Shown here one piece after another: positions 2,526 to 36,924 of a stretch of 38,928 nucleotides of DNA. The stretch is from a virus, in IMG/VR virus record IMGVR_UViG_3300042387_002375, positions 1 to 38,928 of that record; one strand, given 5' to 3'. Position numbers and translations under genes: made by a program. Each line of letters opens with the position of its first letter. Position 1 is the stretch's first letter. Under the pieces are notes generated by a model. That model was not told the DNA's origin. It made no database searches and saw only the letters and a list, made by a program, of their open reading frames with translations.

Positions 2526-3571
2526 TAAACAATGCCTCCTGTAAAGACTTCAAAAAGATTAATCGAAGACAAGTTTGTTGTATAATAGACGTCATCGTCT
2601 GGTTTTCCGCTTGTTTGAATAACAAATGTTCTTAGATTTCCATCAGAAGACAGCAGAGTTCTTGTCATGATTTCGTTTGTATGATTTGCAATATAAACTT
2701 GCTCAAGTGCCATGGCATCAATGTCAATAGCGCCTGTAGAAGTAGCTGAGAACATTGTGAGTAGCAAATCTGCATAATCTTGAGTAAACAGTTCTTGCTT
2801 CTGATAAGGTCCTGGAACTGCACTCAAACCAGTTGCAACTAGACCTTCAACACACTCAGGAGGATTTGGCGGTATAAAATGGTTTGGTGCTGTATCAAGT
2901 CCTGCATTATCTTGATCATAATAATCATAAATGCATTTTGCAGAATTTTGAACGGAATCTGGATATGGTTGGAAGAGTTCTTCTGGATTTGCTCCAAGAG
3001 CCAATCTTCCGTAATCTCCCACATCATTAATTTGCTTATTATTTGGACCAGTTTCAATTCCTGGCTCATAAGAATATTCATAGCGCTTACATTTGATATA
3101 CCAAACATAGTGGCCCATCAAAGCATTTGTCATCGGAAGGTACTCATCATCTCTTTCAGTAATCTCGTAGATTGGAGCGCTTCTTCCGCCAGGTCTATCT
3201 GCTCCATATTCTGTCAGCTGAATTAGATCTCCTGCCTTTGGCTCCATGCCACAGCCAATTCTATCATAAAAAGAAGATATGTGAACAACTGCTGTCATGT
3301 CGCAATCAGCCATAATGCCAAATTTTGAAAGCATCAAAGAATCGTTTGTAATATCAGTCAGCATTATCAACTCTTCAAACTTTCCGTATTTTGCTGTCGG
3401 ATCTTCCCCATAAAGAAAATTATGAGAAGTCAGAGTATAACCATGCGTAAAATAAGTAACAGAAGTGCCAAAGTGTTCAATCTGCTCCCTCCACCATTTT
3501 GAGTAGTTTTCCCGCTCATTGGCGTTGTTATTCTTGTTCAGATAACGAACTCTGTCCATTGTTTTTAGCAT
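2525..3571 (-). CDS. gp14: gp14-like neck (head-tail connector) protein
   Basis: The region after residue 20 follows the T4 gp14 pattern. A sequence around YFTHGYTLTSHNFLYGEDPT corresponds to the gp14 segment with LIFGED. Then come a hydrophobic strand with KFGIMADCDMTAVVHIS (gp14 has FGMQVQDEVTLSI), PKAGDLIQL (gp14 PKEGDLIYF) and PIYEIT (gp14 LFEI). T4 gp14 helps complete the neck that joins the DNA-filled head to the tail. This protein is longer (348 versus about 256 residues) because of an extra C-terminal region that recurs in the next two genes. The ATG at 3571 overlaps the upstream stop by 7 bases. A TTG at 3598 and an ATG at 3559 are alternatives, and none has a clear ribosome-binding site. 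Confidence 0.68.
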   Translation of the reverse strand: MLKTMDRVRYLNKNNNANERENYSKWWREQIEHFGTSVTYFTHGYTLTSHNFLYGEDPTAKYGKFEELIMLTDITNDSLMLSKFGIMADCDMTAVVHISSFYDRIGCGMEPKAGDLIQLTEYGADRPGGRSAPIYEITERDDEYLPMTNALMGHYVWYIKCKRYEYSYEPGIETGPNNKQINDVGDYGRLALGANPEELFQPYPDSVQNSAKCIYDYYDQDNAGLDTAPNHFIPPNPPECVEGLVATGLSAVPGPYQKQELFTQDYADLLLTMFSATSTGAIDIDAMALEQVYIANHTNEIMTRTLLSSDGNLRTFVIQTSGKPDDDVYYTTNLSSINLFEVFTGGIV

Positions 3572-5104: not shown

Positions 5105-8100
5105 TCAAATTTTTCCGCAATTTGGATCAAAATATTTTATCAGACTCTGAAGATTTGTCCAGAGCTGTTCTGATAATCTGTTGATAACTGCATTTGTAAC
5201 AATTTCGTTTTGTCCAATCACTAAATCTTCTTTAGAATAGGTTGGAGCTTTGTATGATTTACATTCCGTTGCATCATAAAACAGAGAGTTTCTTAAAACT
5301 TCAATATTATCCCACAAGCGATGGAATGCTTTTTGATAAACCCAAGGCTGGATGTATTCTTCTTTGTGAATTAAAATTTCGTTTAAATCCCAATACAAAA
5401 TTGAAAGAATTGGAGCTCTTGTAGAAATTAGCTCCATACGGTCAACAAATTTTAAAACTTTGTCTTCAACGGCAACATAAACATTTCTGTGTTCGTCTTG
5501 ATAAATGCTATTAAAGTTTGTTAAAACGTTTCCGTCAGCGCATACAAAATTGCTTATCATCTTTTCGAAAAACGATCCAGTTCTAAAATATTTTATAACC
5601 CCTGCGCTGTGTGCAATGTAAATTACTTCTCTGTGATTATAAGAGCAAGTAATTTTGCTTGGAGCTGTAACTTCCTTATCCAAAAAATATTCAAAGTTTA
5701 CGGAACCGTCTTCATTAAAGACAACAACCTTGCTTGCAAAAAGCACATGCAATTTTGATTGAGAGTCTTGACAAACACTCAGAGGTTCTTCGCTTGTAGC
5801 AATTTCTGTATCAATTGTCTGGACATGCTTTCCTATAGAAGTAAATCTCTTAATGCATTTATTGCCACTGTCAGCAACAAGCACTTGGTTATCTTGATTT
5901 ACATGAATATCTTTTGGTTTATTAAATCCGTACAGACTTTTCTTGAGGCCATATCTTCCCCAAGAATTAAAAAGAACAAAAGAACTGTCTTTAATCTCAT
6001 AAACGCAAATTCTTGGAATTAAAGAATCTAGAACATATAATTTGCCTTCTTTCGTTTGTGTGATTGCTTCAATATTAGCAAAAGAAAAGATTTCGTCAGC
6101 AATGCCTCTTCGAGCAATTAAAGTAGACTCGTAAGTATCATCAAGTAAGTTTAGTTCTGTGTTGTGAGCTATCACCGTTTGGCCATTTGGAAGATGTAAA
6201 ATTCCTTTAATGACACATCTCGTCTTATCGAGACAAAACGGAATTGGAAAAAAGTCTTGATCGATTGTAGAAATATGCCACTTGCCTTTATCACAATTCA
6301 ATAGCTCTGAATCAACCTCACAAGATTCATACTTCCATTTCTTAGCATATTGTCCAGCACTTTTTGAGTCCTTCCATGTGGTAAAAACGTCAGAAGTCGA
6401 TCGTTTGCGAACCCTCCATTTCCATTCCAAACAGTATTTTTGCAAGCAAGAAGGATCTCCAACTTGCTTTGTACATTCATGATCTAACCAGTATATTGGA
6501 AATCCAGCCGTTTTGTCTTCGCCTGTGCATACCTCATGTTGTGACCATGCAACTTCTTCTGAATTGTTTGGAGGACATTCTATATCAGACCAAGCATAAG
6601 TTGGATTGCCAAGCCAACCATAAAATTTACTTGCCTTGTTATAAACTAGCGTATAGTCTTTAACTTGCTCCGTTAAATTATAAAGCTTCTTGACTATATT
6701 GTTGATATTGTCTTCTACTGCCCATTCATTTGGAGAAATTAAAGGAACCGATGTAAGAGACAAAGTCAGAGGAGTATCAATCGATCTGTACGAATCTGTA
6801 TCAATTTCATCAAAACTGTCGACAATTTCCACCATGTCTGGCAAAATATTAACAATCGTTTGCTCTTGTTGCACGCTTTGATTATAAAAGATTGCATAAG
6901 CAGAAAGAGTTTTTGTGCCTAGCTTATCGAATGAAAGCACGAATGATTCTTTTAATTTGCTTCCAGACAATGTAACAGATGTTCCGTCTTCGGAATCTAT
7001 TGTTACCTGCTTTAAAGCAAAAACATCGTCCGCATAAATTTCTAGTGATTTTACTAAGACCTCTTCGTTGCGCAAATTTAAAAAATTTGGAATATACGGC
7101 TTGATATAAGGAATTGGAGTAATTGTACAATTTGAACTAAACGTTTCAGTCTGAGTATTTTCTAGCCAATCATAAGGAGGATACTTTATTTGTACAATTT
7201 TTTCAACAGACACCATCTGAGTAACAGTCGTGCTATCCGTCGGAGAAATTTTTAAAAACGTTGGAGTTTCTTGCAGCCTAACATCATATGCCAACGGAAA
7301 ATTATATGTAGAGATTCCCTTTAACTGTTTTTTCCATGTCCAGTCTCCTCCTCGAGATACTGTATCAAGTTCCCAAGTAGAATTATCTAACCTTTCCGTC
7401 AAAATTGAAGATAAACCAATTTGTCTTACAGTTGCAACAAATTGTTGATTAGAATAATCATAGGGCAAATTAAACTGATTAAGAGAAAATGGCGTATTAT
7501 AAAAATACTGCGAAACCGTTGGATATGGCTTGATCTGTATGCTGTCTTTCAGCAAAGTGTTTGAACTGCTCTGAAAGCCATCTGCATCAAGAGACGAAGA
7601 AAAGAAGCTGTAAAATTCTGCTTCTCCTGTGCTGTCATTATATTTTATAACTGGGCCATCTTCCTTAATGCTTTGATCAACGAGTCTAAGATGGATTGGT
7701 ACCTTTTCGTTTTGAGATGAAAGAGAAGTAATTGCAACAGTCGTTGTGCTGTTTGTTGCACTGACTGCATACAAGGACTGAGAAAGATTATCTAAGCTAT
7801 TGCCAATTAGCCAAATTCCTGAAACACTGTTTGTAATACTTGCTGTAGACAAATTGATTACTTCTGTATGACCTTCTCCGTAAAAATACAATCCAGGAGA
7901 TTCAAAATAATTTTCTGCGCTCAAGGCATACTGAATGCAACACAGCTCATCAAAATATGTGCTGGGATAAGCAATAAAATTTGCTATTGGAAAATTACTC
8001 AGAAATACTGCTGACAAAGAAAATTGTCCGAGATCAAAACCGTCATTTGCTGACAAATATACATCGACCGAAGAAATTGTTGGCACTTGTCTGCTAAAGG

Positions 8101-8314
8101 ACACATCAAAGCCGCTAACAAAGCTGTAACTATTGCGAGATGAATTATTAATTGAATACTCAGCAATATAGTTGGCAGTTGCCTGCGAAACAAAATTCGA
8201 AAGCTCTTGATCGCTCAGTTTAACCGAAGCAGTATAGTCGACAGAAGAAACTTCCCTATAAAACACAGAGTTGTTGCTTTGTCTTTCAAAATTTACAAAC
8301 AGATCGAGAGCCAT
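5105..8314 (-). CDS. Large virion protein with Ig/PKD-like, Trp/Cys-rich and NHL propeller domains
   Basis: A 1069-residue protein. Residues 1-400 are Ser/Thr-rich beta sequence. Residues about 415-490 look like an Ig/PKD-type sandwich (ending KTLSAYAIFYNQSV). Residues 575-675 are Trp/Cys-rich and contain CLQKYCLEWKWRV, TTWKDSKSAG and KKWKYESCE, closely matching a module in the 481-residue protein of the same cluster. Residues about 750-960 carry NHL-type propeller repeats, clearest at GFNKPKDIHVNQDNQVLVAD followed by SGNKCIKRF. The C-terminus is charged and helical. No export signal is present, as expected for a virion protein. A baseplate or tail-tip role is inferred from its neighbours and size. 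Confidence 0.75.
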   Translation of the reverse strand: MALDLFVNFERQSNNSVFYREVSSVDYTASVKLSDQELSNFVSQATANYIAEYSINNSSRNSYSFVSGFDVSFSRQVPTISSVDVYLSANDGFDLGQFSLSAVFLSNFPIANFIAYPSTYFDELCCIQYALSAENYFESPGLYFYGEGHTEVINLSTASITNSVSGIWLIGNSLDNLSQSLYAVSATNSTTTVAITSLSSQNEKVPIHLRLVDQSIKEDGPVIKYNDSTGEAEFYSFFSSSLDADGFQSSSNTLLKDSIQIKPYPTVSQYFYNTPFSLNQFNLPYDYSNQQFVATVRQIGLSSILTERLDNSTWELDTVSRGGDWTWKKQLKGISTYNFPLAYDVRLQETPTFLKISPTDSTTVTQMVSVEKIVQIKYPPYDWLENTQTETFSSNCTITPIPYIKPYIPNFLNLRNEEVLVKSLEIYADDVFALKQVTIDSEDGTSVTLSGSKLKESFVLSFDKLGTKTLSAYAIFYNQSVQQEQTIVNILPDMVEIVDSFDEIDTDSYRSIDTPLTLSLTSVPLISPNEWAVEDNINNIVKKLYNLTEQVKDYTLVYNKASKFYGWLGNPTYAWSDIECPPNNSEEVAWSQHEVCTGEDKTAGFPIYWLDHECTKQVGDPSCLQKYCLEWKWRVRKRSTSDVFTTWKDSKSAGQYAKKWKYESCEVDSELLNCDKGKWHISTIDQDFFPIPFCLDKTRCVIKGILHLPNGQTVIAHNTELNLLDDTYESTLIARRGIADEIFSFANIEAITQTKEGKLYVLDSLIPRICVYEIKDSSFVLFNSWGRYGLKKSLYGFNKPKDIHVNQDNQVLVADSGNKCIKRFTSIGKHVQTIDTEIATSEEPLSVCQDSQSKLHVLFASKVVVFNEDGSVNFEYFLDKEVTAPSKITCSYNHREVIYIAHSAGVIKYFRTGSFFEKMISNFVCADGNVLTNFNSIYQDEHRNVYVAVEDKVLKFVDRMELISTRAPILSILYWDLNEILIHKEEYIQPWVYQKAFHRLWDNIEVLRNSLFYDATECKSYKAPTYSKEDLVIGQNEIVTNAVINRLSEQLWTNLQSLIKYFDPNCGKI

Positions 8315-8357: not shown

Positions 8358-10829
8358 TCAACTCCAAACAATTCTTAACAAATCAGCATACAACGGTTTT
8401 ATTTCACCAACAATTTGTCTGAGCTCTGCTTCAATAATTTCTTTTGTCAGAGGATCTGTTATGCCTGTTCCACACAAATTGATATTAAAAAATTGAGATT
8501 TAGCGCCAGGCATCTTATGTTTGAATACCCTTTCCACTTGCTCCACATACTGCGTAAGAGGAAGAGGCATAGGCCAATATAAATCTTCAGCAATAACAGA
8601 AGCTCGGATATAGGACTCTAAATTAAAATTTGGTATGCAATAGTCATAAATTCTTATATCTCCAATTTTTCCGTTAAAAATGCAACTTGTGTGTTTAGTT
8701 TCAGAATTTAAACCGAGAGCATTTCCTGTTGGAGATCCAATAAAAAACGTTGGCTGCAAGTCATAAGAAACTTCATATTGTCCTGGAAGAGTCAAATTAG
8801 CAATATTTGTTGCATTAGCCCATAACTGAAATCTCTTATTTTTGTAGTTGAGTACCAAATGTTGCCAACTATTAAGCGTCCAAGTATCAATTGGAGACAT
8901 GGCTTTAAAGATTGTATAAAATAAAGAATCTTTAGACAAATCTTTGACAGAAGCTTTCAAAACAATTTGTGGCTTATTGTTATAGGGAGAAAGTTGATTG
9001 AAAATACGCTTTCTTTCGTAGCCAGTAAAATCTCCTTCTGACAAAAATTCAAAAGATTCAATGTTTTGAGCATATCGTTTAATAATATTTACGTCAAACA
9101 TCGTTTTCAAGTCTGTAACAGAATCAATAACGCCGTCAAGAGTATAAAAATACAGTTTCTTTTCATCTGAATAAAACACTGCACAGTACCATTGCTTTGC
9201 ATTCGTTTGTCTGTCAAATCTTTTAATAAAGCTAATGTTCTTTTTAGCACTTGTTCTTTCGACGTTTGTTCCAATTAACAGTGTTTTAGTAATTGTTGAG
9301 CTGCTCGGATCGACAATTGACACGCTGTTTCTTCCATGCAAAACCCATAATTTTCCGTCTGGATCGACTGATATTTTTGTAGCATTCTCGGAAAACGTTA
9401 AAGCCAGAACATCGTTTTTATATAAATTTCCGTCAAGTTTAATTGACCATTTCGTATCTTCTATAAATTTAACATCAAGCACTTCATTTGTCAAAACAAG
9501 CTCGTCTGTATCTTGTTCAGAATTGTAAGAAAATGCAGCAATCGTGTCTGTTTGAATTGTTTGCGGAATTGTTTGAAGCAACTTTAAGTTGTTGTCAAAT
9601 ACATGCACAGATTTGTTCGTAACAACATAAAAGTCATCATTCCTGCCGCACAAAATTTGTTTAGGTAGTTCGCCACTCAAAGGAAAAGCAAATAGAGTAT
9701 CCGGATCTGAAAGATTCTTTGTTGACCTTATTATTTTTCCGAGGTGATCCATTTTATAAATTACGCCGGCTGTGTCATTTTGACAAACAATAACATGATC
9801 GTTTGAATCAATTGCAAAGCAAACTGGATTAACAGGAGAAAAATTCTTTTGGAGTGTCTTGTCGAAGAATCCAAATCCTTCTTGGTTAATCATCAAAACA
9901 TGACCATAAGCAGTTTCCGGAATTGCAATAAAAGGATAAGCATCAAGAGTATCCAAACAAATTCCGACACCACCTTGAGTTGAAAAATTTCCAACAATTT
10001 GCGTCGAAACGTTAGCTTGCCAGTTATCTGATTGGGTCCACAGCGTCCAAGTAAACTCATTTGTGGGAGTATAGTTTGGACTATAATCAACAGAACACTC
10101 GACGTTGGAGCTATGTTTAAAATTAATAATGGGATTAATAACTCGACCGGCTTCCGAAACTGTTGGGTAGAGATCACTTGCTGGAGCAGAAGATTTAATG
10201 TTAACAACTAATTTGTTCGAGGACCGATCAATTGATTCTTGTCCCCAATTAAGCAGATGCATTTTTAACCGCTCAGAACTTGCTCCTTCAAATGTTGTTA
10301 GTAATTGATCAAATGAAGTTTCACCATAATGAAAATACCTATATAAAACACCTGGTTCAAAAACCATTTTTGAAGGAATGTCTTTAAAAATTGGATCAAG
10401 TCTAACGTACGGAGGATACTCGAGCAATTGAGCTTTAGCAATCGAATAATCAAATTTACCTGGATTATAAAATCTGTCCATCCATTGAATCACGCCCGTA
10501 TTTGGATTTTTGTATAACCAGCTACAAAACCATGTGCCGTCCGCAACATCGCTCGGTGAACCATGATGAGTTTGGTTTCCGTAATTTTTTTTGCTCTTAA
10601 AAATTTTATCAGCTGCTGCTGGAAATGCGCCAGCTGCTGCTCCGTTTGCAATTAAATTTGTTTCCGTTAGCTTAACGGGAGTGGTGTAAACTGGAATGTG
10701 AAAGTATGTTTCTTGATTCTTTTTAAAGACAATTTCTTTTTGATCGTGCTGATAACCAAAAGTTAAGTTTTCTGAAGTTCCTTCGCGATTCTTGTTTATA
10801 TAAAGCTTGTTGTATGTTCTATTGTTCAT
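8358..10829 (-). CDS. Virion protein with a beta-propeller apparently nested in a LamG-like domain
   Basis: An 823-residue protein. Residues 55-77 (TETNLIANGAAAGAFPAAAD) match a segment of the 1842-residue + strand protein (ETTLIASGALAGSTPSVAD). Residues 258-315 (EFTWTLWTQSDNW, then GGVGICLD) resemble the first half of a LamG/concanavalin-like sandwich. Residues 645-740 (LNSWQHLVLNYKNKRFQLWA, FIGSPTGN, FNGKIGDIRIYDY) resemble its second half. Residues 330-580 between them look like propeller blades (PVCFAIDSNDHVIVCQND, KISVDPDGKLWVLHG). The C-terminus (LYWPMPLPLTQYVEQVERVF) is a separate helical segment. The start overlaps the upstream stop by 4 bases (ATGA), so translation is probably coupled. 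It is most likely a baseplate or tail-tip component. Confidence 0.72.
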   Translation of the reverse strand: MNNRTYNKLYINKNREGTSENLTFGYQHDQKEIVFKKNQETYFHIPVYTTPVKLTETNLIANGAAAGAFPAAADKIFKSKKNYGNQTHHGSPSDVADGTWFCSWLYKNPNTGVIQWMDRFYNPGKFDYSIAKAQLLEYPPYVRLDPIFKDIPSKMVFEPGVLYRYFHYGETSFDQLLTTFEGASSERLKMHLLNWGQESIDRSSNKLVVNIKSSAPASDLYPTVSEAGRVINPIINFKHSSNVECSVDYSPNYTPTNEFTWTLWTQSDNWQANVSTQIVGNFSTQGGVGICLDTLDAYPFIAIPETAYGHVLMINQEGFGFFDKTLQKNFSPVNPVCFAIDSNDHVIVCQNDTAGVIYKMDHLGKIIRSTKNLSDPDTLFAFPLSGELPKQILCGRNDDFYVVTNKSVHVFDNNLKLLQTIPQTIQTDTIAAFSYNSEQDTDELVLTNEVLDVKFIEDTKWSIKLDGNLYKNDVLALTFSENATKISVDPDGKLWVLHGRNSVSIVDPSSSTITKTLLIGTNVERTSAKKNISFIKRFDRQTNAKQWYCAVFYSDEKKLYFYTLDGVIDSVTDLKTMFDVNIIKRYAQNIESFEFLSEGDFTGYERKRIFNQLSPYNNKPQIVLKASVKDLSKDSLFYTIFKAMSPIDTWTLNSWQHLVLNYKNKRFQLWANATNIANLTLPGQYEVSYDLQPTFFIGSPTGNALGLNSETKHTSCIFNGKIGDIRIYDYCIPNFNLESYIRASVIAEDLYWPMPLPLTQYVEQVERVFKHKMPGAKSQFFNINLCGTGITDPLTKEIIEAELRQIVGEIKPLYADLLRIVWS

Positions 10830-13276: not shown

Positions 13277-14344
13277 TTACAAACTAAATCCTTCAAATTC
13301 GCTTTCGTTGATGTCTGTGTTTCGAGCTCCAATCTTATACGAAGAAATTTCCGTTTCCTGAGGAGCAACTTGAACTTTGCTGGAGTCCATGTAGGAATCA
13401 AGCCATCCAGAAATTGGATTATCTTTTTGATTAAAAATCTTTTTATAACCCAAGGAGCGCAACCGGTTATCAGCAAGCCACTTACAATAACCTGACAAGG
13501 ATTCTTCATTCAAACCAAGCAAACTTCCTTTACTAAACAAATACTTTGCCCATTCAATTTCTTGCATAGTAGCTTCATAGTACAAATCATAAACCAAAGA
13601 GTCGTACTTCTTAACAACGTCCTGGAAACCTTCTTCTGGAACATCTCGCAGAATCTTAATCAAATTTTGTGTTACTGCAAAGTGCTGAGCTTCGTCTCTT
13701 TGAATGAGTTTGATAATTTTTGCATTACCTTCCATGCGACCTCTATAGCCAAAATAAAAAGAACAAGCAAATGATACATAAAATACCAGACCCTCCATAA
13801 CATTTGTTGAAAGAATGGCCTTATAAATTCTGTCTCGGATGTCATCAGAATTTGGATCTGCTCCAAGAAGTTGATCATAATTTGAACGAATGATTTCTTT
13901 TCTCTTCATGATTTCTTTATCAGCATAAATGGAATCAAAGAATTCTCCTGGCTTTGCAAACAAGTTTCGAAAAACCCATGAGTAGCTTCTTGAATGGATA
14001 ACTTCGAAGTCTGCCCATTTTGTCATACATGCTTCTAATTCCGAATTAGTAACAAATTCTCGAAGCGAAAGGATACTTCTACTCAGCATACTATCTCCAA
14101 GCGTTTGGAAGCGGATATTACTGTCAAAAACAAACCTTTCAGACTCTGTCAGTTCTTGATAGTCACTCTTATCTTTAATCAAAGTAACTTCTTCTGGTCT
14201 CCAGTGAAACTCGTCTTGCTTCAAATAAAGATCATCGAAGATTGGATATTTCAAAAGATCATATCGCTGCAGGCCGAGATCCTCACCAAGAAACAAAGGT
14301 TGAGTTAAGGGATTTACTGCTGTTTCGTTGAGTACAGTTTTCAT
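13277..14344 (-). CDS. nrdB: Ribonucleotide reductase class Ia, small (radical) subunit
   Basis: A 355-residue protein that aligns along its length with E. coli NrdB. It makes the tyrosyl radical that NrdA uses to reduce ribonucleotides for DNA synthesis. The di-iron ligands are all present: Asp84 (TLGDS), Glu114 and His117 (FEVIHSRSY), Glu184 (NVMEG), Glu218 and His221 (RDEAQH). Tyr121 of that second motif matches the radical Tyr122 of E. coli. The tail keeps the radical-transfer Tyr (SSYKIG) and an acidic, aromatic end (ESEFEGFSL) like the peptide that docks on NrdA. The ATG at 14344 lies 4 bases after the nrdA stop. A GTG at 14365 would overlap nrdA and is less likely. The enzyme looks fully functional. 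Confidence 0.97.
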   Translation of the reverse strand: MKTVLNETAVNPLTQPLFLGEDLGLQRYDLLKYPIFDDLYLKQDEFHWRPEEVTLIKDKSDYQELTESERFVFDSNIRFQTLGDSMLSRSILSLREFVTNSELEACMTKWADFEVIHSRSYSWVFRNLFAKPGEFFDSIYADKEIMKRKEIIRSNYDQLLGADPNSDDIRDRIYKAILSTNVMEGLVFYVSFACSFYFGYRGRMEGNAKIIKLIQRDEAQHFAVTQNLIKILRDVPEEGFQDVVKKYDSLVYDLYYEATMQEIEWAKYLFSKGSLLGLNEESLSGYCKWLADNRLRSLGYKKIFNQKDNPISGWLDSYMDSSKVQVAPQETEISSYKIGARNTDINESEFEGFSL

Positions 14345-14348
14345 AATT

Positions 14349-17300
14349 TTAAATTGTGCAAGCACCTCCAGAGCAAGAAGAATCTTCTTCCTTGTTCATC
14401 AGTTGCTCTTTGTCGTTATCGTTTGTGTTTGTATAATAAATTGTTTTGCCTCCCAAGCTATAATGGTGCATCATTTCTTTAATAACTTTAGAGTGTGGAA
14501 TCATTTTGTTTGGATAATGAGAATAGTCATAATAAAAATTCACAGACATTGCCATATCAGTAAACTTCTGAATAGCTGCTACGATGTTAAGATACCCGAT
14601 ATTATCCTTCATGTCAAATGCAATTGTGTATCTATTTTTCCATTGAGTTGCATTCGGAGCAATTACAGGAACTGTTGAAGCCTTTGATTTTTTATAGGTG
14701 ATCAAACTACGAATTGGTTCAAATCCGTTTGTGCTGTTTTGAATGACGGAACTGTTGTGAGCAATACAACCATTTTCTAGAGCATAATGGTGAACATTTG
14801 CTACTTCAATATCATAAGTTTGAACTTGTTCTGTCAATTTTGTTATTTTGGAAATCTTTGAAGAATTAGTCTGCAAGCAAACGATATTGTCCTCTTCTTT
14901 AAGATCTCTCACGCAAATCCAAGCATCAAATGATCCTTTACTAACAAGAAGTTTGTGGTTTCCTGTGAATTTGTAGCTTTTTCCGTCTTCGAATTCTATG
15001 TCATATGCGTCAGAAGAATTACCGTTATAATAAGCTCTCTCTACAATTTGATCTCCTTCAAGTGTTTTAACATAAAATGGTTTAGGAAGTTCGTACCAAC
15101 CAGGAACACCTTGCTCCTCAATGGACTTTGTATCCAAACCAGCTTTCGCAAAAAGATCTTCTAGTGCAAAAATTCCTTGTGGAGTTTGGATTCTTGTATC
15201 AAGAGCCTGACAAGACTCACATGGCATATGAGCAGAAGTAGTCGAGTTTCGCAAACCATATTGCAAAATATCTTTTCTCAAAGTCTCCCAATCCATCTTC
15301 AGAGGAGTAGTTACAATTGCATCGAGTTTGTCTTTTTTGTAATGATCAATTGGAAGAAGTCCTTTGGAATAAGTTGTTCTGTCAAACTTTTCACATTTTC
15401 CTTTTTCCTTAGCAAGCTCCATACTTGACTTCAAACAAAAGTATTGCTGCTTTTCCATAAAGTCTGCAACAAAGTTTGGAGCTTCTTTGTCTTCAAACTT
15501 CAAATTATTTTTGGCAAGAACTGCTGCAAGGTTTGTAATTCCGATGCCAAGGCTTCTTCTCTTTGTTGCAAAATTTTCAGCAGCCGGACAGAAGTATTCT
15601 TGGTAGTCAATAATTTCATCAAGCATGCGCACAGTAATATCACAAACTTTTTCAAATTCGTTATCAGAAGCAATTTCGAGCCAGTTAATAGCCGCAAGAA
15701 TACAAATACCAATTTCTGCGTCTTTATCTTCTAAAGACTTTAAAGGAACGATAGGGTGTGTTACTTCTTGGCAGTTATGAACAAGAATATTATTAGCAAA
15801 GAAGTTTTCTGTATTTCTTACGGTAATATCATAAACGGGCTCAACTTTCTGATATCTCGAAATCTTTGAAATTTTTGTTGGAGCATTAGTAATAAGAATA
15901 TCGTCTTGAACAAGATCTCGAGCAAGAACATAGCCTTTATTTTCTGTAAAGATTTTATGCTCTGGTGTGCACTTAACAATATTGCCTTTCTCGTCTTCGA
16001 TCTCGATGAGTTCAATCGATTCTCCGGTTTGAGCAAAAGCAGTAATTTCTGAATAAACGACTTGCTTTGAAGAAATATCATAAGACTTAACCTTCAAATC
16101 TTTGGAAGTCTTTACATAAAAATCCAAATCTTTCATTTGAACAGTTAGATTTTGTCCGTCTGTTTGAATATCGATCAGCGTGTCTCCAGTTACACACAAA
16201 TTTGACATTTGTACGGTATCTAACCAAGCAGAATGGCTATTAACATTATCAACATTGATAATATAAATTCGTCCAGTTTCGATGCGTTCTTTTGTAATCA
16301 AATCAAACAAATCACGAGCAGAAATAGTCTTCTTAAATTTCAAAGAAGAATCTTTCTCATACTTTACATAAAGTTCGTCAAACTCTTCTGTGCCAAATTT
16401 TTCAAAAAGATCTTTGCATTCATGAGACGAGAACAAAGTAATGTTTTCATTATTCAACCAGCGCTGATAAAACAACTTGGACATGCCAATAGAGTAATCA
16501 AGTTTGCGCACACGGTTTTCTTCTGTTCCTGCATTATTTTTCAGAACAACAATGTCTTCGATTTCATAATCAAAAACAAATACAGTTGTTGTTGCTGAAC
16601 CACCTCGAATGCCATTTTGGTGGCAGCTCTTGACGGTAGATTCAAAAACTTTCAAGAAAGGAATCTTGCCAGTATGAATAACATCTCCGTTGCGAATTGG
16701 AGCACCCAATGCTCTTACATGAGCAAAATTAAAGCCAATGCCATAACGATTAGCAGTTGCATGACCAATTGCTGAAACATTTGCAAGAATCGAAGCCATG
16801 GAATCATCTACTCCAGCAAGCAAGCAAGAAGCAAAGCTTTTAAGAGGAGTTCTGACGCCAGCCATAATCGGAGTTGGCAAATTAATCTTATGCTTGCTAA
16901 AATAGTTATAAGCTTTCTTTACATAATCCAAGCGTGTTTCTTTTGGATAATTGGCAAAAGCAATTGCAGCAATCAGAATATATGCAAACTGCGGAGTTTC
17001 AAAAACTTCCTTGGTCTTTCTGTTCTGCACAAGATATTTGTCGATTAGTTGTTTGATGCCTGCATATGTAAAAATAAAATCTCTGTCATGATCAATGAAC
17101 TCGTCAATCTTATTGAGTTCCTTTTCAGAATACAAATCAAGAATTTCAGAGGTATAAACGCCAGCAGTAACGTTCTTCTTAATCAAATCGATTAGCTTTG
17201 GAGGATTCTTGCCACCCCAAACGTTTTTTCTGAGTTGATAGGTAAGCAAACGAGCAGCAACATATTGATAGTTTGGAGTATCAATTGTGATCAAATTAGC

Positions 17301-17498
17301 AGCAGATTCAATGAGCACTTGATGAATTTCTTCGGTCGTAATTCCGTCTCTAATATTAATCTTTGCATTGATTTCAATATCTGATAAGCTGACATCCTTA
17401 ATGCCGTCAACAGCCCACTTGACTGTTTTGTTAATCTTATCAATTTTGAAAACTTCTTTTTCTTTTGACCGTTTGATCACTTGTATTTCTTTTTCCAT
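14349..17498 (-). CDS. nrdA: Ribonucleotide reductase class Ia, large subunit, with two mini-inteins
   Basis: The 1049-residue precursor contains inteins at 435-575 and 763-915. Spliced NrdA would be 755 residues, close to E. coli NrdA (761). Residues 1-95 form an ATP-cone. Active-site residues are present: Cys225 (SFASC), Asn433, Cys576 and Glu578 (N-L, then CQE after splicing) for the Asn437/Cys439/Glu441 set, and Cys599 (IGIC) for Cys462. The radical-path Tyr pair is at 1021-1022 (KTIYYT), and the C-terminal redox pair is Cys1042 and Cys1047 (CSGGAC). It reduces ribonucleoside diphosphates together with NrdB. Its ATG follows the previous stop by 5 bases and nrdB follows directly, so they are probably co-transcribed. 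Without splicing of intein 1, the thiyl-radical Cys cannot sit in the active site. Confidence 0.97.
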   Translation of the reverse strand: MEKEIQVIKRSKEKEVFKIDKINKTVKWAVDGIKDVSLSDIEINAKINIRDGITTEEIHQVLIESAANLITIDTPNYQYVAARLLTYQLRKNVWGGKNPPKLIDLIKKNVTAGVYTSEILDLYSEKELNKIDEFIDHDRDFIFTYAGIKQLIDKYLVQNRKTKEVFETPQFAYILIAAIAFANYPKETRLDYVKKAYNYFSKHKINLPTPIMAGVRTPLKSFASCLLAGVDDSMASILANVSAIGHATANRYGIGFNFAHVRALGAPIRNGDVIHTGKIPFLKVFESTVKSCHQNGIRGGSATTTVFVFDYEIEDIVVLKNNAGTEENRVRKLDYSIGMSKLFYQRWLNNENITLFSSHECKDLFEKFGTEEFDELYVKYEKDSSLKFKKTISARDLFDLITKERIETGRIYIINVDNVNSHSAWLDTVQMSNLCVTGDTLIDIQTDGQNLTVQMKDLDFYVKTSKDLKVKSYDISSKQVVYSEITAFAQTGESIELIEIEDEKGNIVKCTPEHKIFTENKGYVLARDLVQDDILITNAPTKISKISRYQKVEPVYDITVRNTENFFANNILVHNCQEVTHPIVPLKSLEDKDAEIGICILAAINWLEIASDNEFEKVCDITVRMLDEIIDYQEYFCPAAENFATKRRSLGIGITNLAAVLAKNNLKFEDKEAPNFVADFMEKQQYFCLKSSMELAKEKGKCEKFDRTTYSKGLLPIDHYKKDKLDAIVTTPLKMDWETLRKDILQYGLRNSTTSAHMPCESCQALDTRIQTPQGIFALEDLFAKAGLDTKSIEEQGVPGWYELPKPFYVKTLEGDQIVERAYYNGNSSDAYDIEFEDGKSYKFTGNHKLLVSKGSFDAWICVRDLKEEDNIVCLQTNSSKISKITKLTEQVQTYDIEVANVHHYALENGCIAHNSSVIQNSTNGFEPIRSLITYKKSKASTVPVIAPNATQWKNRYTIAFDMKDNIGYLNIVAAIQKFTDMAMSVNFYYDYSHYPNKMIPHSKVIKEMMHHYSLGGKTIYYTNTNDNDKEQLMNKEEDSSCSGGACTI
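14754..15212 (-). other. NrdA intein 2 (153-residue mini-intein)
   Basis: Precursor residues 763-915. It starts CQALDTRIQTPQG (block A), has a Thr-x-x-His block B (YKFTGNHKLLV), and ends TYDIEVANVHHYALENG then CIAHN (blocks F and G) before extein Ser916. It interrupts the sequence equivalent to E. coli ALMPSET/SSQ. There is no room for a LAGLIDADG or HNH homing endonuclease, so it is a splicing-only element that cannot move by itself. Splicing chemistry appears complete: Cys1, His-Asn end, Ser+1. Confidence 0.93.
15774..16196 (-). other. NrdA intein 1 (141-residue mini-intein)
   Basis: Precursor residues 435-575. It starts CVTGDTLIDI (block A), has block B VKCTPEHKIFT with Thr-x-x-His, and ends VYDITVRNTENFFANNILVHN-like blocks F and G, with His-Asn before extein Cys576. 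It sits exactly before the Cys equivalent to E. coli Cys439, the catalytic thiyl-radical residue, which doubles as the +1 nucleophile for splicing. No homing endonuclease domain is present. Confidence 0.94.
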
Positions 17499-17503
17499 AT
17501 TTT

Positions 17504-18061
17504 TTAAATTTTTGTTGCAAATAGGCTGATATAATGCTTCTCGGAAATTTCTTCAAAGCTTGTTTGATTAAAGTCAGGAAAGTGCCTCAAGACTAGTTTC
17601 TTATAAAATAACAGAAGTCTTTCGTCTTTCGGCTCGGAAATCTCGAATGCAATTTTTGTCATTTGATTTAGATTATACTCTTTTTCTACAAAACTTTTCA
17701 AAAAAGATAATTTAAGTGCGGTGAATAATTCAAAAGACAATAATTTTGAAAGATTTATATTAAGCAAGTTTTTGTTTAAATCTTGTAAGGAAATGTAACA
17801 AGACACTTCGGATCCATTTTCCTCAAAACTAATAACTATATTAAACTCTTTTCCGTCAAGCGTTTGAATCAAGTAAGAGCATGACGGTTCTTTTGTGGTT
17901 AACTCGCAATCTTCAATTAGCGTCGCAAACATACTAAGTTCAGCTGCTTTATAAAAATATCTATCCCAATCAATAGCGCTCTCATCCAAATCTTTAGTAA
18001 AAGGATCTTTCAAACGAACTGACTCATAAAGAGCAGCAATATAATCGTTGTCTTTATTCAT
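17504..18061 (-). CDS. Uncharacterised phage protein in the nrd cassette
   Basis: A 185-residue protein with no named family that I can assign. The middle (SYLIQTLDGKEFNIVISFEE) is a beta-hairpin pattern. The later segment (KIAFEISEPKDER, then LLFYKKLVLRHF) resembles a recurrent phage arrangement in which a beta strand with 'F..sE.kd.R' precedes a helix with 'lY.kLv.R'. A GNAT-like or other alpha/beta fold is possible but unproven. This start has the best Shine-Dalgarno in the window: AAGGAG, 4 bases before the ATG at 18061, inside the end of the upstream gene, which it overlaps by 8 bases. That differs from the late genes, which mostly lack such sites. Confidence 0.72.
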   Translation of the reverse strand: MNKDNDYIAALYESVRLKDPFTKDLDESAIDWDRYFYKAAELSMFATLIEDCELTTKEPSCSYLIQTLDGKEFNIVISFEENGSEVSCYISLQDLNKNLLNINLSKLLSFELFTALKLSFLKSFVEKEYNLNQMTKIAFEISEPKDERLLLFYKKLVLRHFPDFNQTSFEEISEKHYISLFATKI

Positions 18062-19648: not shown

Positions 19649-20149
19649 ATGGCCATTAAAATCTCCAATCTCCAGCAAATTGCTAATCAGTATGCTCAAA
19701 AGGCATATTATTACAAAGATTTGCATTTGGACTTTGAAAAAAACGGAGAATACAATACAACTCTTGGCAAAAAAATTGAAGGAAACGACCTGAAAGTAGA
19801 TTTTGATGAAAGTGCTATAAGAAACTCTTTAAAAAACCTTTTCAACACAAAACCAGGACAGAGATTTCTTTTTCCTCTTTATGGTCTTGACCTTTATCAG
19901 TATTTGTTTGAAGCAGTCAATGAGTTTAATGGTCAGCTAATTGGCGAAAAGATTGTAACGTCTATTGAAAATTTTGAGCCGCGCGTAGTTGTTCGTGAAT
20001 GCAATGTGGTTGCTATGCCCGATGATAATCAATATGATATAACAATTATTGTAGAAATCCCTATTCTTAATTCATTAGCTTCTATAAATACTGCTTTGGA
20101 CATTAAGACACAATCATTCATCTTTATAGAAACTTCGAGAAACCGATGA
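19649..20149 (+). CDS. gp25: gp25-like baseplate wedge protein
   Basis: A 166-residue protein. Residues 60-115 contain the gp25/GPW signature: LKNLFNTKPGQRFLFPLYG, a middle LYQYLFEAV, then IENFEPRVVVRE. This family is a conserved part of contractile-tail baseplates (T4 gp25, also in type VI secretion) and links the wedge to the sheath. It is somewhat longer than T4 gp25 (132). Its TGA overlaps the ATG of the gp6-like gene (ATGA at 20146), the same 25-then-6 order as T4. This pair is the strongest evidence for a myovirus-type tail. Confidence 0.93.
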   Translation: MAIKISNLQQIANQYAQKAYYYKDLHLDFEKNGEYNTTLGKKIEGNDLKVDFDESAIRNSLKNLFNTKPGQRFLFPLYGLDLYQYLFEAVNEFNGQLIGEKIVTSIENFEPRVVVRECNVVAMPDDNQYDITIIVEIPILNSLASINTALDIKTQSFIFIETSRNR

Positions 20150-21981
20150 CAAACGAAACAACAAACGATTTTCCTCTTCCAAAAGACACATATGCTGCTT
20201 TTGATGCAATCTCTTTGCGCAATCTGATTATTGAGAGATTGAATGACAAAGGAGTCTTCACCGATCAAAATTATATAGGCTCCAATCTTGCTGCTATTAT
20301 TGATATTGTTTCCTATTCTTTCAATACCTTAATTTATTATCTAAACAGAACCAGCACGGAATCTACTTTTACAGAAGCTCAGCTTTATGAAAACATTAGC
20401 AGAATTGTTAAGCTTCTTGATTATAAGCCAGTTGGCTATCAAACTTCTACTCTAACCTTTCAGTGTTCTGCTGACAATAGAGACAATAGCTTTGATTTAG
20501 TTAATGGCGTTTATACAATTCCGAGATATTCTTATCTAACAATTGGAAACATTCCTTTTTCTTTTAATGAAGACGTTTCGTTTTCAGTTAGCCAGCAAAG
20601 CGTTCTAGAGCTAACAGACATTACAAACAGAAAATTGTTATTTCAGGGTGTTTACAGAGAAAATCCAATACACACAGCTTCTGGAGATTCTAATGAAATA
20701 GTTACGATAAACGTTGCAAATGCTCTTGTTGATCACCTCAACATCGACGTTTATGTTTATGAGATTTCTCAAAATAGATGGGTTCAATACAGAGAAACAC
20801 CAAGCTTGTATACTGAACAGCCTTCAACGAGAAGTTATGAAAAGCGCTTGAATCCAAACTTCTTGTATGAAATTACATTCGGAGACGGAGTAAACGGAAG
20901 AAGATTGCAGCAAGGAGATCGCGTTGCAATTTACTTCTTGCAGAGTTCTGGAGATCTTGGAGTTATCGGGCCAAGAACTTTGAGCGACCCTCAGCTCGAT
21001 AGATCTATTTTCAATACGACTGCTTATGAAGCAATTCTTTCGGATGTAAAGCAAGATCAACAATCCTTTTTGTTGACAGCTCCTCTGTTTCAAAGATTAT
21101 TTTTTGATAACATTTCCGGATCCACTGTACCAAAGAACGTTGAAGATGCAGATAGCATTAGAAAAAATGCTCCTGCAAATTTCAAAAGCCAGTACCGTCT
21201 CGTTACGATTTCAGACTACGAAACGTTTATCAAAACTAACTTCAACAACTTTATCGGAGACATTAAGGCATTTAGCAATTGGGATTATACTTCAAAGTAT
21301 TTAAAATACTTCAATGATATTCAAGTAAGTCCAACTGCTTTTCGTCAAATCATGTTGAACCAGGTGCTTTATTCAGATGCTTGCAATTTTAATAATGTTT
21401 ATTTGTGCGGTGTTCCAAAAGTTGCACAGGGTTCTACTTTAAAATATTTGCTGCCTGCTCAAAAAGAATTAATTATTTCAAATCTTCAGCCTTTAAAAAT
21501 GTTGACAACCGAGACAACGTTTGTTGATCCAATCTTCAAGGCACTAACATTTGGCGTAAAGTCTGTTGATTCTGAAGTTGTTGTTAGCGATGCAGACTTT
21601 ACTCAAGTAGAATTTGCAAAAACTCCAGGAAATAACAGAAACAACCAGAGCATTATTGCAGACATTGTTAATGTGTTCCAACAATTCTTCAGTCCTCTTC
21701 GACAAGAAATTGGCGGCATGATTGATCATAGCTTGTTAACAAGCAATATTTTGTCAATTGACGGAATTTCTTCAATTACTACAAGAAGACTAGACACAAA
21801 TGAATCGACTGAAGGTCTTTCGTTTTATTTGTGGAATCCAACATATCCAGACCTTGATAAAAAAGCTGTCGTCAATAATCTTATTCTCAGTCCTTTTGAA
21901 TTTTTGTACTTCCAGGATCTACAAAATGTTGCAAGCAAGTTTGTTGTAATAGAAAGTCCGTACGTAAACACTAAATATTAA
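20146..21981 (+). CDS. gp6: gp6-like baseplate wedge protein
   Basis: A 611-residue protein that follows the layout of T4 gp6 (660 residues). The N-terminal helix region with SLRNLIIERLNDKG and GSNLAAIIDIVSYSFNTLIY matches gp6 (NLIEWLNG, GSRLNVLCDLLAYNTLYI). A beta region follows with FLYEITFGDGVNGRRLQQGD (gp6 has FYFGEG). Then comes a segment around RLVTISDYETFIKTNF (gp6 RCVTATDYDTFVSERF). In T4, gp6 dimers form the inner ring of the baseplate and drive its change of shape. Gene order with the gp25-like gene supports the call. Confidence 0.92.
   Translation: MTNETTNDFPLPKDTYAAFDAISLRNLIIERLNDKGVFTDQNYIGSNLAAIIDIVSYSFNTLIYYLNRTSTESTFTEAQLYENISRIVKLLDYKPVGYQTSTLTFQCSADNRDNSFDLVNGVYTIPRYSYLTIGNIPFSFNEDVSFSVSQQSVLELTDITNRKLLFQGVYRENPIHTASGDSNEIVTINVANALVDHLNIDVYVYEISQNRWVQYRETPSLYTEQPSTRSYEKRLNPNFLYEITFGDGVNGRRLQQGDRVAIYFLQSSGDLGVIGPRTLSDPQLDRSIFNTTAYEAILSDVKQDQQSFLLTAPLFQRLFFDNISGSTVPKNVEDADSIRKNAPANFKSQYRLVTISDYETFIKTNFNNFIGDIKAFSNWDYTSKYLKYFNDIQVSPTAFRQIMLNQVLYSDACNFNNVYLCGVPKVAQGSTLKYLLPAQKELIISNLQPLKMLTTETTFVDPIFKALTFGVKSVDSEVVVSDADFTQVEFAKTPGNNRNNQSIIADIVNVFQQFFSPLRQEIGGMIDHSLLTSNILSIDGISSITTRRLDTNESTEGLSFYLWNPTYPDLDKKAVVNNLILSPFEFLYFQDLQNVASKFVVIESPYVNTKY
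21970..21977 (+). promoter_or_regulatory. Late-promoter-like octamer ACTAAATA
   Basis: ACTAAATA lies 6 bases before the ATG at 21984 and overlaps the end of the gp6-like gene. The TAAATA core and spacing fit the set; the second base is unusual. It may be a secondary promoter in the operon. Confidence 0.4.
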
Positions 21982-21983
21982 AC

Positions 21984-24900
21984 ATGTCTTTAGAATTTTC
22001 TACATCTCCAGACACAAAGGGTGACGTTTATGCAACAACGTTTGTTTTCAAAAAAACGACTTTGCCTTCCTATACAATAACAACTTGGGACTTTGGAGAT
22101 GGAAATTTTGTTTATAATCAAGAAGAAGCTTCTCATGTTTATAATTTTCCTGGAGTATATAAAGTTTCTTTGTCTGCATGGTCGGAGCAAGGAAGTCTGG
22201 AAACGTTTTCGGAATTAATCGACGTCGATTATATTTTAAGAGACGCAATTATTATTGATCAAATTCCTTCTCGTTGGGGCGTACCCGGTTTGCCTTCTGT
22301 AGAACCTTTTGTTGTCAGTTTGACGTCTGCAAAAATTGATGAGCCTTTAAGTGTTGTTCTTCAAGCACTCAATACAAAATCTGTTCCGCATTATGCTGTT
22401 CCAGAAAAATGGAACTTTCTTGTTCCAAAATGGAGGTTTGTTGATGCAACTACGAATCAAATTTTGGACGGTCCAATACCACTCAGCACTACTCCGGTTT
22501 ATAAAGACTCGGTACAAATTGCCGTCAAAGGCCAAGCTTCTTTTTATTATGTTGATGATCTTGCAACAGGAACAGATCCAACACAAAGCTGTCCGTTGCT
22601 AATAACTGCCACTCTCAGCACAGAAAGCTTTTCTTATCCTCCTGAAACCTTAATATATCCTTATCACAGTTATAGTAACTCAGAAGTAGCTCGAGCAGTT
22701 ATTGCTTGGCAGATTAGCGATGTTGTTCCAACCGATCTTAAAGTTACAGAAAATTTTTTAAATGACGTTTATCCAATAAAGTGGGCCGGCGTGCCCATTC
22801 CAATAATGATTACTTGTCGTTTCAATCCTTCCACGATTGAATCGTTTTCTTCAAGCTCTGCAGTATCTTCCACAGACGTTTTGTCATATCCAAGAACAAA
22901 CGAACTTGGAGGCATTTCTGCCGTTGATGTTAAAATTATAGGTTTGAGCAGCTCGCAATATACAGTAGACGAAGCTCCTTTGTATTTTAAAGCAACAGAC
23001 GAATCTAACAATGTATCAAGTGGTTATATTTTTACAACCGTTACTCCGCTTGTAACAGCTAATACCGTAACAATTCAAGTCAGCACGGTTGCTCATAATC
23101 AACTAGAAAGTGAAAACGAATTTCCCTTTCCGGACGGCTTTCCGATTACGCCCGAAGTTTATATTTCTCATCCCTTTGAAAGCAACATTAATAAAGTAAA
23201 TGTAGTTACATATCCAACCAATTGCGCAGATATTGAATATTTTAAAAATCTCGGCGTTCTGACAGACGGTTCCATATCTTTTATTGGAATGCCTGTCTTG
23301 TCTTCAAACTCTGTAGACAATTTGCAATTATCTGGAACTAATGGCATCTATGCAATTACATATAATCCCGTAAAGGAATTGATTTATGCTGGCGATGCAG
23401 ACCAAGATAAAATTTATGTAATCAATATTCGCAACGAAATTATACAGACTCTTTCGTTGTCTGCTCTATTTGGAGAACTTGGAAGTGCTCCTTCCTATAT
23501 GTCAATTGACAGCGAGCACAATGTTTGGATATCTTTGTATGATAGATATACTGCACTAAAATATAATAGTAGCTTACAAACCCTTCTTGCTTCTGCAGTT
23601 CCGACATTTTTTGATAATCTTGAAGAGTTTGACGAAGGAAGTCCTCTGATTGCTCCACCAATTGCTGAAACAGACAAAGAAAACGATGTATGGATATGTT
23701 ATTCACATCCTGTGAGCAGCTGTCTTTTAAAATTTGATAGCAACGGAGATTATGTTGCTTCAGCAGAAAATTTGCCTCTTGACAGTGTTCCGGTCAGCCT
23801 TGCAATTACCAAACAGAACAATGTTTGGGTTGCTTGCAGAGAAGCAAACGAAGTCCGATGCTATAACACAAACGGCAACTTGCTTTCTTCTTTTGAATAT
23901 AATACACCAAGTCATATAGCAGTCGACCGTCAAAATAATTTGTGGATTCTTCATGGTTATAATTTGTACAGCATGCTGAACACAACAACTCTTGCAGGAA
24001 GCTCTTGGAGAATTGAGACAAAACCAGAATTAAAAACCGAGATTGTCTTTGATCATTATGCTCCTCTGTCAGAGTATTCCGCTGAAGATCTTGATATAAC
24101 AGATGACACAAATGAAATATGGGGTGGTCTGACTGTTGATGTTTATAACAGAGCTTGGTTCATCGACAACGAAAATAATACAGCTGGCGTGTTTTCAGTA
24201 TTTACTCCAGAAAATATTAGAATTTTTGATGTTCAACCAACCGCTTCTACAAATTATATTCTGAGAACTGGCGACAGCTTTGTTACAGAAATTGATACAA
24301 CTATTATAAGATCTGCTCAAACTATTGGAGACTGGTCAGGCAACAGATGGTATCAAAAATACGCTGGTCAGTATAGCTCGGTTCCAGTATCTGGCGTTTC
24401 CGTTCCTTTTGCTATCAAAGATTTAAATGCAGAAGCTCGAATTGCAAAAGTTAATGACAGCTTTGATTGTGCAAATCATTTTAAATCTTTGGCACTTCCA
24501 GAAATCTTGAGCAGAAATACAGAATTCTTTGAAACGTTCTTGCCTGGAGTCGTTGGCTACGGAGATGCCGGAAAGGAAGACCTTGGAAGAATTGTTTACG
24601 AAAAAACAGCAAACTTTGTACCAAACCATGCAGATATTGATACATCCGAAATTGATCAATTAATGTCTACTGCAAGTGCTTTGTCAGTTCCAACAAAAAC
24701 GTTTGGAGTTAATTTTCCTGAAGAAATCAAACGACTTCTTAGCATCTTTTCTGTTCAAAAGCATTATTTAAGAGGCGTTCCAAATTTAGAAGCAGATATT
24801 AACAACAACATTGGTCCAATATTAACAGAAACTGATTTAATTAGTGCTGAGCAATATTTGTTTATGAAAGACAAAAGATATGATGTTTTTCAGCTCGTAT

Positions 24901-25169
24901 ATGTGGCTCCAAACGATGATTTAGGAAATGTGTACCCGTTGTCTCTTTTGCAGGTAGAAGGATCCAGACAACCTTTAATGGAGAACTATTATTTCTTTCA
25001 ATATGATGACACTAAGTCTAACGGATATCAATCAAATTTAATTGACTGGGATTCGCCAAATACAACAATATCTTATACTTTATCAACAAACGAAGAATGG
25101 TATGGCGAAGACCAAATGGTCGAACTGTACTTTAATAACATATTAACAAAGCGTTTGTTTGAAAAGTAA
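21984..25169 (+). CDS. Large baseplate-associated protein with PKD and propeller domains
   Basis: A 1061-residue protein next to the gp6-like gene, where T4 has gene 7. Residues 1-85 form a PKD-type domain (TTWDFGDGNFVYN, HVYNFPGVYKVSLSAW). Residues 450-740 contain propeller-like blades, including GIYAITYNPVKELIYAGDAD, YMSIDSEHNVWISLYD, LAITKQNNVWVACRE and HIAVDRQNNLWILHG. The C-terminal region (KTANFVPNHADIDTSEIDQL, then FPEEIKRLLSIFSVQKHYL) resembles the C-termini of virion proteins encoded beside gp6 in marine T4-like phages, as I remember them. It is probably a wedge or baseplate-rim component. Propellers are usual in binding proteins, so a carbohydrate-binding role is possible but unproven. 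Confidence 0.8.
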   Translation: MSLEFSTSPDTKGDVYATTFVFKKTTLPSYTITTWDFGDGNFVYNQEEASHVYNFPGVYKVSLSAWSEQGSLETFSELIDVDYILRDAIIIDQIPSRWGVPGLPSVEPFVVSLTSAKIDEPLSVVLQALNTKSVPHYAVPEKWNFLVPKWRFVDATTNQILDGPIPLSTTPVYKDSVQIAVKGQASFYYVDDLATGTDPTQSCPLLITATLSTESFSYPPETLIYPYHSYSNSEVARAVIAWQISDVVPTDLKVTENFLNDVYPIKWAGVPIPIMITCRFNPSTIESFSSSSAVSSTDVLSYPRTNELGGISAVDVKIIGLSSSQYTVDEAPLYFKATDESNNVSSGYIFTTVTPLVTANTVTIQVSTVAHNQLESENEFPFPDGFPITPEVYISHPFESNINKVNVVTYPTNCADIEYFKNLGVLTDGSISFIGMPVLSSNSVDNLQLSGTNGIYAITYNPVKELIYAGDADQDKIYVINIRNEIIQTLSLSALFGELGSAPSYMSIDSEHNVWISLYDRYTALKYNSSLQTLLASAVPTFFDNLEEFDEGSPLIAPPIAETDKENDVWICYSHPVSSCLLKFDSNGDYVASAENLPLDSVPVSLAITKQNNVWVACREANEVRCYNTNGNLLSSFEYNTPSHIAVDRQNNLWILHGYNLYSMLNTTTLAGSSWRIETKPELKTEIVFDHYAPLSEYSAEDLDITDDTNEIWGGLTVDVYNRAWFIDNENNTAGVFSVFTPENIRIFDVQPTASTNYILRTGDSFVTEIDTTIIRSAQTIGDWSGNRWYQKYAGQYSSVPVSGVSVPFAIKDLNAEARIAKVNDSFDCANHFKSLALPEILSRNTEFFETFLPGVVGYGDAGKEDLGRIVYEKTANFVPNHADIDTSEIDQLMSTASALSVPTKTFGVNFPEEIKRLLSIFSVQKHYLRGVPNLEADINNNIGPILTETDLISAEQYLFMKDKRYDVFQLVYVAPNDDLGNVYPLSLLQVEGSRQPLMENYYFFQYDDTKSNGYQSNLIDWDSPNTTISYTLSTNEEWYGEDQMVELYFNNILTKRLFEK

Positions 25170-35096: not shown

Positions 35097-35103
35097 CTTG
35101 GCT

Positions 35104-35111
35104 TACTTATC
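35104..35111 (-). promoter_or_regulatory. Late-promoter-like octamer GATAAGTA
   Basis: GATAAGTA on the - strand, 7 bases before the ATG at 35096, in the short gap after the tail fibre assembly gene. Confidence 0.6.
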
Positions 35112-35127
35112 AATCATTGAAGCTTTG

Positions 35128-35499: not shown

Positions 35500-35501
35500 A
35501 A

Positions 35502-36905: not shown

Positions 36906-36910
36906 GAAGT

Positions 36911-36918
36911 TATTTATC
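36911..36918 (-). promoter_or_regulatory. Late-promoter-like octamer GATAAATA
   Basis: GATAAATA on the - strand, 5 bases before the ATG at 36905. It is paired with the + strand octamer at 36925, only 6 bases away, in a 33-base divergent gap. Confidence 0.65.
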
Positions 36919-36924
36919 AAACAA

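Follow-up and report, generated by a model that had tools for sequence, protein, structure and literature searches.

Two endonuclease-free inteins interrupt the active site of a phage class Ia ribonucleotide reductase at sites that are also occupied in other phages

The nrdA gene carried by the viral DNA analysed here (IMG/VR record IMGVR_UViG_3300042387_002375, positions 1 to 38,928; the whole 38,928-nucleotide stretch is referred to as the window) was found to encode the large subunit of a class Ia ribonucleotide reductase (RNR) interrupted by two contiguous inteins, neither of which contains an endonuclease. The best explanation, to which we assign a probability of roughly 0.9, is that the NrdA precursor would mature by two splicing reactions in cis and that both inteins belong, as members without an endonuclease, to phage RNR intein families that occur mostly in split form. 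The features of the region are as follows.

14349-17498, minus strand: nrdA precursor, class Ia RNR large subunit with two inteins, 1049 aa, stop codon at 14349-14351
16197-17498, minus strand: N-extein, aa 1-434, with the ATP cone, the all-alpha domain and the first part of the barrel, including Cys225 and Asn433 (E. coli Asn437)
15774-16196, minus strand: intein 1, aa 435-575, 141 aa, C1...KCTPEH...VYDITVRNTENFFANNILVHN, contiguous, without endonuclease
15771-15773, minus strand: Cys576 codon, +1 nucleophile of intein 1 and, by alignment, equivalent of the E. coli thiyl-radical Cys439
15213-15773, minus strand: middle extein, aa 576-762, with Glu578 (E. coli Glu441) and Cys599 (E. coli Cys462)
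15219-15221, minus strand: Cys760 codon, position -3 of intein 2, whose spacing with Cys763 (Cys1) would correspond to the known Cys-3/Cys1 redox trap
14754-15212, minus strand: intein 2, aa 763-915, 153 aa, C1...KFTGNHK...TYDIEVANVHHYALENGCIAHN, +1 residue Ser916, contiguous, without endonuclease
14352-14753, minus strand: C-extein, aa 916-1049, which contains the pair of C-terminal cysteines and the Tyr-Tyr pair equivalent to E. coli Tyr730/731
13277-14365, minus strand: nrdB, small subunit, overlapping the end of nrdA, without intein (PRK09101 337 bits, cut-off 346)

The nrdA gene is one open frame, and no frameshift or stop was found across its 1049 codons. It was assigned to class Ia NrdA by its match to PRK09103 (845 bits, cut-off 813) together with the presence of the catalytic residues. 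Matches to Pfam Intein_splicing (E=2.7e-23) fell in three stretches of the protein, and two stretches were matched by TIGR01445 intein_Nterm (49.2 bits, cut-off 24.5) and by TIGR01443 intein_Cterm (42.2 bits). When the inteins were cut out at C1...HN, the joined extein amounted to 755 aa (434+187+134) and retained Cys225, Cys599, Asn433, Glu578, Cys1042, Cys1047 and the Tyr-Tyr pair. Since all checked RNR catalytic residues are kept in the exteins, the spliced NrdA looks functional as judged from its sequence. AlphaFold models of intein 1 and intein 2, each with a few flanking residues, gave a single compact domain with a mean pLDDT of 93.5 and 94.0, respectively, which leaves no space for an endonuclease. 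Both models have the HINT fold and, among PDB structures, match inteins best, with the split intein NrdJ-1 (8ubs, TM 0.86) for intein 1 and TvoVMA (4o1s, TM 0.78) for intein 2. Searching the PDB with a short peptide returned no match. Both inteins are mini-inteins, contiguous in one open frame with no nested endonuclease, and neither is divided over two ORFs. These findings confirm the presence of two endonuclease-free inteins in NrdA, with exactly the lengths of 141 and 153 aa given in the initial annotation.

The placement of both inteins was examined by phmmer alignment against E. coli NrdA. Intein 1 is inserted between the residues aligned with Leu438 and Cys439, and Cys576 aligns with Cys439, so that the radical cysteine is also the +1 nucleophile, as had been proposed. 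Intein 2 lies between the residues aligned with Thr624 and Ser625, Ser916 being the equivalent of Ser625, which agrees with the earlier placement in the MPSET/SSQ region. Both have the features of class 1 inteins: C1/C+1, TPEH in block B, the block F Asp (VYDI) and a C-terminal HN in intein 1, and C1/S+1, TGNH in block B, the block F Asp (TYDI) and a C-terminal HN in intein 2. The statement that blocks A, B, F and G are complete in both holds for intein 2, in which the block F His is present (VHHYALENG), but only in part for intein 1, in which Glu occupies the place of this His (NTENFFANN). Among 57 distinct viral inteins at the catalytic-cysteine site, this place is occupied by His in 42 and by Glu in nine; because Glu recurs in these relatives, it is, on sequence comparison, a recurrent variant rather than a sign of decay.

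In the proposed maturation, Cys1 of each intein would undergo an N-S acyl shift, the N-extein would then pass to the +1 residue, which is Ser916 for intein 2 and, for intein 1, Cys576, later the radical Cys, and cyclisation of the last intein Asn followed by an acyl shift would yield native NrdA in which the thiol of Cys576 is free. The roles of Asn437, Cys439, Glu441 and the substrate phosphate loop are general RNR knowledge. Before splicing, intein 1 would part Asn433 from Cys576 and Glu578 (E. coli Asn437 from Cys439 and Glu441), and intein 2 would cut the substrate phosphate loop. As both inteins interrupt parts of the active site, the precursor should be inactive, and the earlier suggestion that active NrdA needs two splicing events would hold; we infer, too, that both inteins splice efficiently. 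A contrary reading is that nrdA is decaying and that its inteins no longer splice, as was suggested for the nrdA of Campylobacter phages (PMC3653736). The replaced block F His of intein 1 and the degenerate nrdA reported in those related cases would fit such decay, which nevertheless appears extremely improbable here, given the uninterrupted reading frame, the retention of every checked catalytic residue and of all other splice-block residues, the intact nrdB next to it and the recurrence of the block F Glu mentioned above.

It had also been suggested that the cysteine chemistry could make splicing sensitive to the redox state. Two cysteine pairs are present, Cys1/Cys+1 in intein 1 and Cys760 (-3)/Cys763 (1) in intein 2, the latter being absent from the initial annotation. 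A Cys-3/Cys1 disulphide is known from Pab MoaA and an engineered Ssp DnaE and a Cys1/Cys+1 disulphide from Pab PolII (PMC3922620; PMC10663303), and the M. smegmatis DnaB intein provides a further redox precedent (PMC6195587). By analogy, the inteins might act as redox gates, oxidation joining Cys1 to Cys+1 in intein 1 or Cys-3 to Cys1 in intein 2 and leaving NrdA inactive until the cell is reducing. However, Cys was also found at the -3 place of site 2 (the intein 2 site) in 33 of 123 intein-less NrdA sites; being common in NrdA without an intein, it belongs to the host site and is not an adaptation to the intein, nor was it selected for it. Moreover, Cys occurs at positions 1 and +1 in all 57 distinct viral inteins at site 1 (the intein 1 site), and the pair is hence non-specific, and the class Ia enzyme, unlike MoaA, works in air. 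By analogy with the known cases a redox trap is possible but not indicated, and we consider redox gating by the inteins very unlikely. A shade less likely again is the fuller version, in which maturation would be gated through two different natural traps in one protein, Cys1/Cys+1 with the radical Cys and Cys760/Cys763; if it were true, active RNR would form only in a reducing host cytoplasm.

The distribution of the inteins among related NrdA proteins was found to be patchy. The nearest NrdA, from locus L044, is 88% identical in amino acids over the joined 755-aa extein and carries no intein at either site, the seams being exact. No intein match was found at 76 of the 80 nearest NrdA loci, six of which end before one or both sites; a site-1 intein is present at the other four (L073, L076, L079 and L080), and L076 is also occupied at site 2. 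In contrast to the exteins, which are only 22% identical, intein 1 is 59-63% identical to the intein of L002, which lies at the same seam in an RNR of another type (NrdE-prime), indicating lateral movement between RNR subfamilies. In DNA, the two most similar inteins share only 69% identity. The idea that both inteins are old, vertically inherited residents of this NrdA lineage whose endonucleases were lost and which have simply become fixed would account for the lack of an endonuclease in either of them and for their GC content (0.34 and 0.36), which is close to that of the exteins (0.35-0.37). We regard it as unlikely, since the 88%-identical relative is empty at both sites, most of the nearest loci show no intein match and intein 1 resembles the intein of a distant RNR much more closely than the corresponding exteins resemble each other. 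The empty sites of this relative also contradict the earlier description of the inteins as fixed, in the population sense. The other part of that description, that they depend on others for movement, is plausible, as relatives of both inteins have free-standing ORFs between their halves, some of which are recognisable endonucleases. From these relatives we infer the source of mobility for the window's inteins; no endonuclease remnant in the inteins and no free-standing endonuclease in the 38.9-kb fragment was found among the ORFs searched against Pfam and PHROGs. No clear signal of a co-conversion tract was seen beside either insertion in comparison with L044. Both inteins may occupy active-site spots because the DNA of the active site is conserved and imprecise loss would be harmful.

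Positions 13277-17511 of the window correspond to L044:4989-8333, nrdA and nrdB being approximately 90% identical in protein. The flanks in the 11.3-kb L044 locus show no protein similarity to the window and only nrdA and nrdB match, and on sequence comparison nrdAB may be a cassette that moves between phages. Elsewhere in the window, positions 19649-25169 and 32580-36920 encode contractile-tail phage structural genes, including a gp25-like baseplate wedge, a phrog_219 baseplate wedge, a tail assembly chaperone, a tail fibre and virion proteins. Positions 5105-8314 and 8358-10829 encode large proteins of 1069 and 823 aa, respectively, in which an NHL repeat and a weak laminin-G-like match were detected. 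No tRNA genes were found in the window.

The relatives of the two inteins occur both in contiguous and in split form. The 57 distinct viral inteins at the catalytic-cysteine site comprise 43 that are split with a long insert, 10 that are contiguous and four that are split with a short gap; L073 carries a further short-gap split intein at site 1 that was missed by the regex. In the usual split layout, the N-half ends with a stop and is followed by an ORF and then by the C-half, which starts from an ATG. The inserted ORFs include an HNH (L007) and a GIY-YIG (L076) endonuclease, and others had no Pfam family match. At L004:4285-4440 (site 1), a TAA is followed directly by an ATG, and at L185:4922-5101 (site 2) there is one in-frame TAA with an ATG 33 nt further on; both are otherwise continuous and contain no endonuclease. 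On their sequences, these two inteins are one codon away from the contiguous form, or the reverse. In the tree of splicing domains the contiguous form is scattered, requiring at least six changes, or four in a smaller, more careful tree, with modest support in either case. Intein 1 pairs with the contiguous L002 intein (96/93), beside the split L007 intein with weaker support. The fact that its nearest relative is also contiguous counts against a change from split to contiguous; a single origin of the contiguous forms would be compatible with the starred branches of the tree alone, and the split-to-contiguous direction is not forced by the tree. The simplest reading of these sequences is that the inteins of the window are contiguous, endonuclease-less members of families that would mostly travel split and with endonucleases. 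One seam holds every stage, split with an endonuclease, split by one stop codon and contiguous, and because all of them occur at an identical seam, intein gain, fracture and re-fusion become directly testable. This series, which lies outside the interval covered by the initial annotation, is the most interesting part of the analysis. The same catalytic-cysteine seam is moreover reused across RNR subfamilies whose exteins share only 22% identity, and the window offers a clean double case, with two inteins in one active site and an 88%-identical relative without inteins to compare it with.

Among all the loci collected for comparison, counted by regex, both sites were empty in 125, site 1 only was occupied in 59, site 2 only in four and both in six; as intein queries had been used to choose part of these loci, the numbers are not population frequencies. 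Inteins resembling intein 2 were also found at KPSG^T in the class II NrdJ of phages, which is the equivalent loop by motif. Intein 2 itself shares 89% identity in its C-half with the split intein of L017, compared to 68% in the N-half and 58% in the exteins. Between the halves of that split intein (L017:4336-5751) lies a 472-aa ORF without a Pfam match, whose C-terminal end gave the impression of Vsr-like nucleases. A third occupied place in phage NrdA, with an intein or insertion, was seen near extein residues 292-301 (the SCSQGGVRGG region of E. coli) in L008 (around 3065-3559), L032 (2901-3566), L039 (3001-3432) and L037 (1177-1683). Relatives of intein 1 were also observed in terminase-like proteins with a CLLIDDP-type motif in phage contigs and bacterial genomes (L013:1339-1791, L014 and genome loci such as L284, L285 and L294). 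One C-half profile scan of GTDB genomes returned 37 loci, none of which had an RNR-like +1 context under the narrow pattern used.

Inteins favour conserved, often catalytic, sites (PMC2814812), some 80 curated inteins were known in RNRs by 2009 (PMC2795772), and in the NrdB of Aquifex two iron ligands are separated by an intein (PMC8772380). The position of intein 1 is shared by 50 of the 57 viral inteins at the catalytic-cysteine site, which lie exactly before the Cys, and by the isolates P1201, PAU, nACB2 and TG1; that the placement is exceptional is not supported, and its uniqueness is ruled out. As sequence comparison indicates, neither placement is new, the same sites being occupied in other phages. 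The remaining seven of the 57 lie one residue later. Such a second register, NLC^C, was seen in L032, L036, L037, L042, L180, L186 and L190; here position -1 is taken by the radical Cys, and residue 440 has been changed to a Cys that would act as +1.

The inteins of Corynebacterium phage P1201 (CP1201 RIR1), Sphingomonas phage PAU and Acinetobacter phage nACB2 are, like intein 1, contiguous and inserted precisely at SNL^C, the catalytic Cys forming the +1 residue, and with approximately 150-160 aa they are likewise too short for a nested endonuclease, although their identity to intein 1 is low (24-31%). The proteins of P1201 and PAU are of the NrdE type according to paper or annotation, whereas that of the window is NrdA; the P1201 record labels its intein a 'hypothetical intein', and the P1201 NrdE was reported to be active (PMC3653736). 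The NrdA of Yersinia phage TG1 has the same SNL^C seam and its N-terminal part is 37% identical, but the intein is split, and a gene annotated as an HNH homing endonuclease separates the two halves. The closest solved relative of intein 1, both by sequence (E=2e-15) and by fold, is NrdJ-1, which also comes from an RNR but is naturally split, in contrast to the contiguous intein 1. NrdJ-1 derives from a class II RNR, in which the catalytic Cys occupies position -1 and Ser position +1. Mth RIR1 of Methanothermobacter is an endonuclease-free mini-intein with Cys at +1 in an NP^C motif; its host is an archaeal class II enzyme with a single intein, compared to two in the NrdA of the window. This mini-intein is used in the pTWIN vectors (PMC7765530). 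The NrdA of Campylobacter phages CP20, IBB_35 and WX1 has, like that of the window, inteins at both active-site places. Their site-2 intein is contiguous in CP20 and IBB_35 and 35-36% identical to intein 2. At site 1 they differ from the window: the insertion point is shifted by one residue, to behind the Cys439 equivalent, and the intein is split, its two halves being separated by ORFs. IBB_35 has a third intein. According to PMC3653736, Dassa et al. (2009) described 'fractured gene' split inteins from marine metagenomes that interrupt nrdA/nrdJ. This layout is shared by most of the relatives found for both inteins, whereas the two inteins of the window are contiguous and without an endonuclease.
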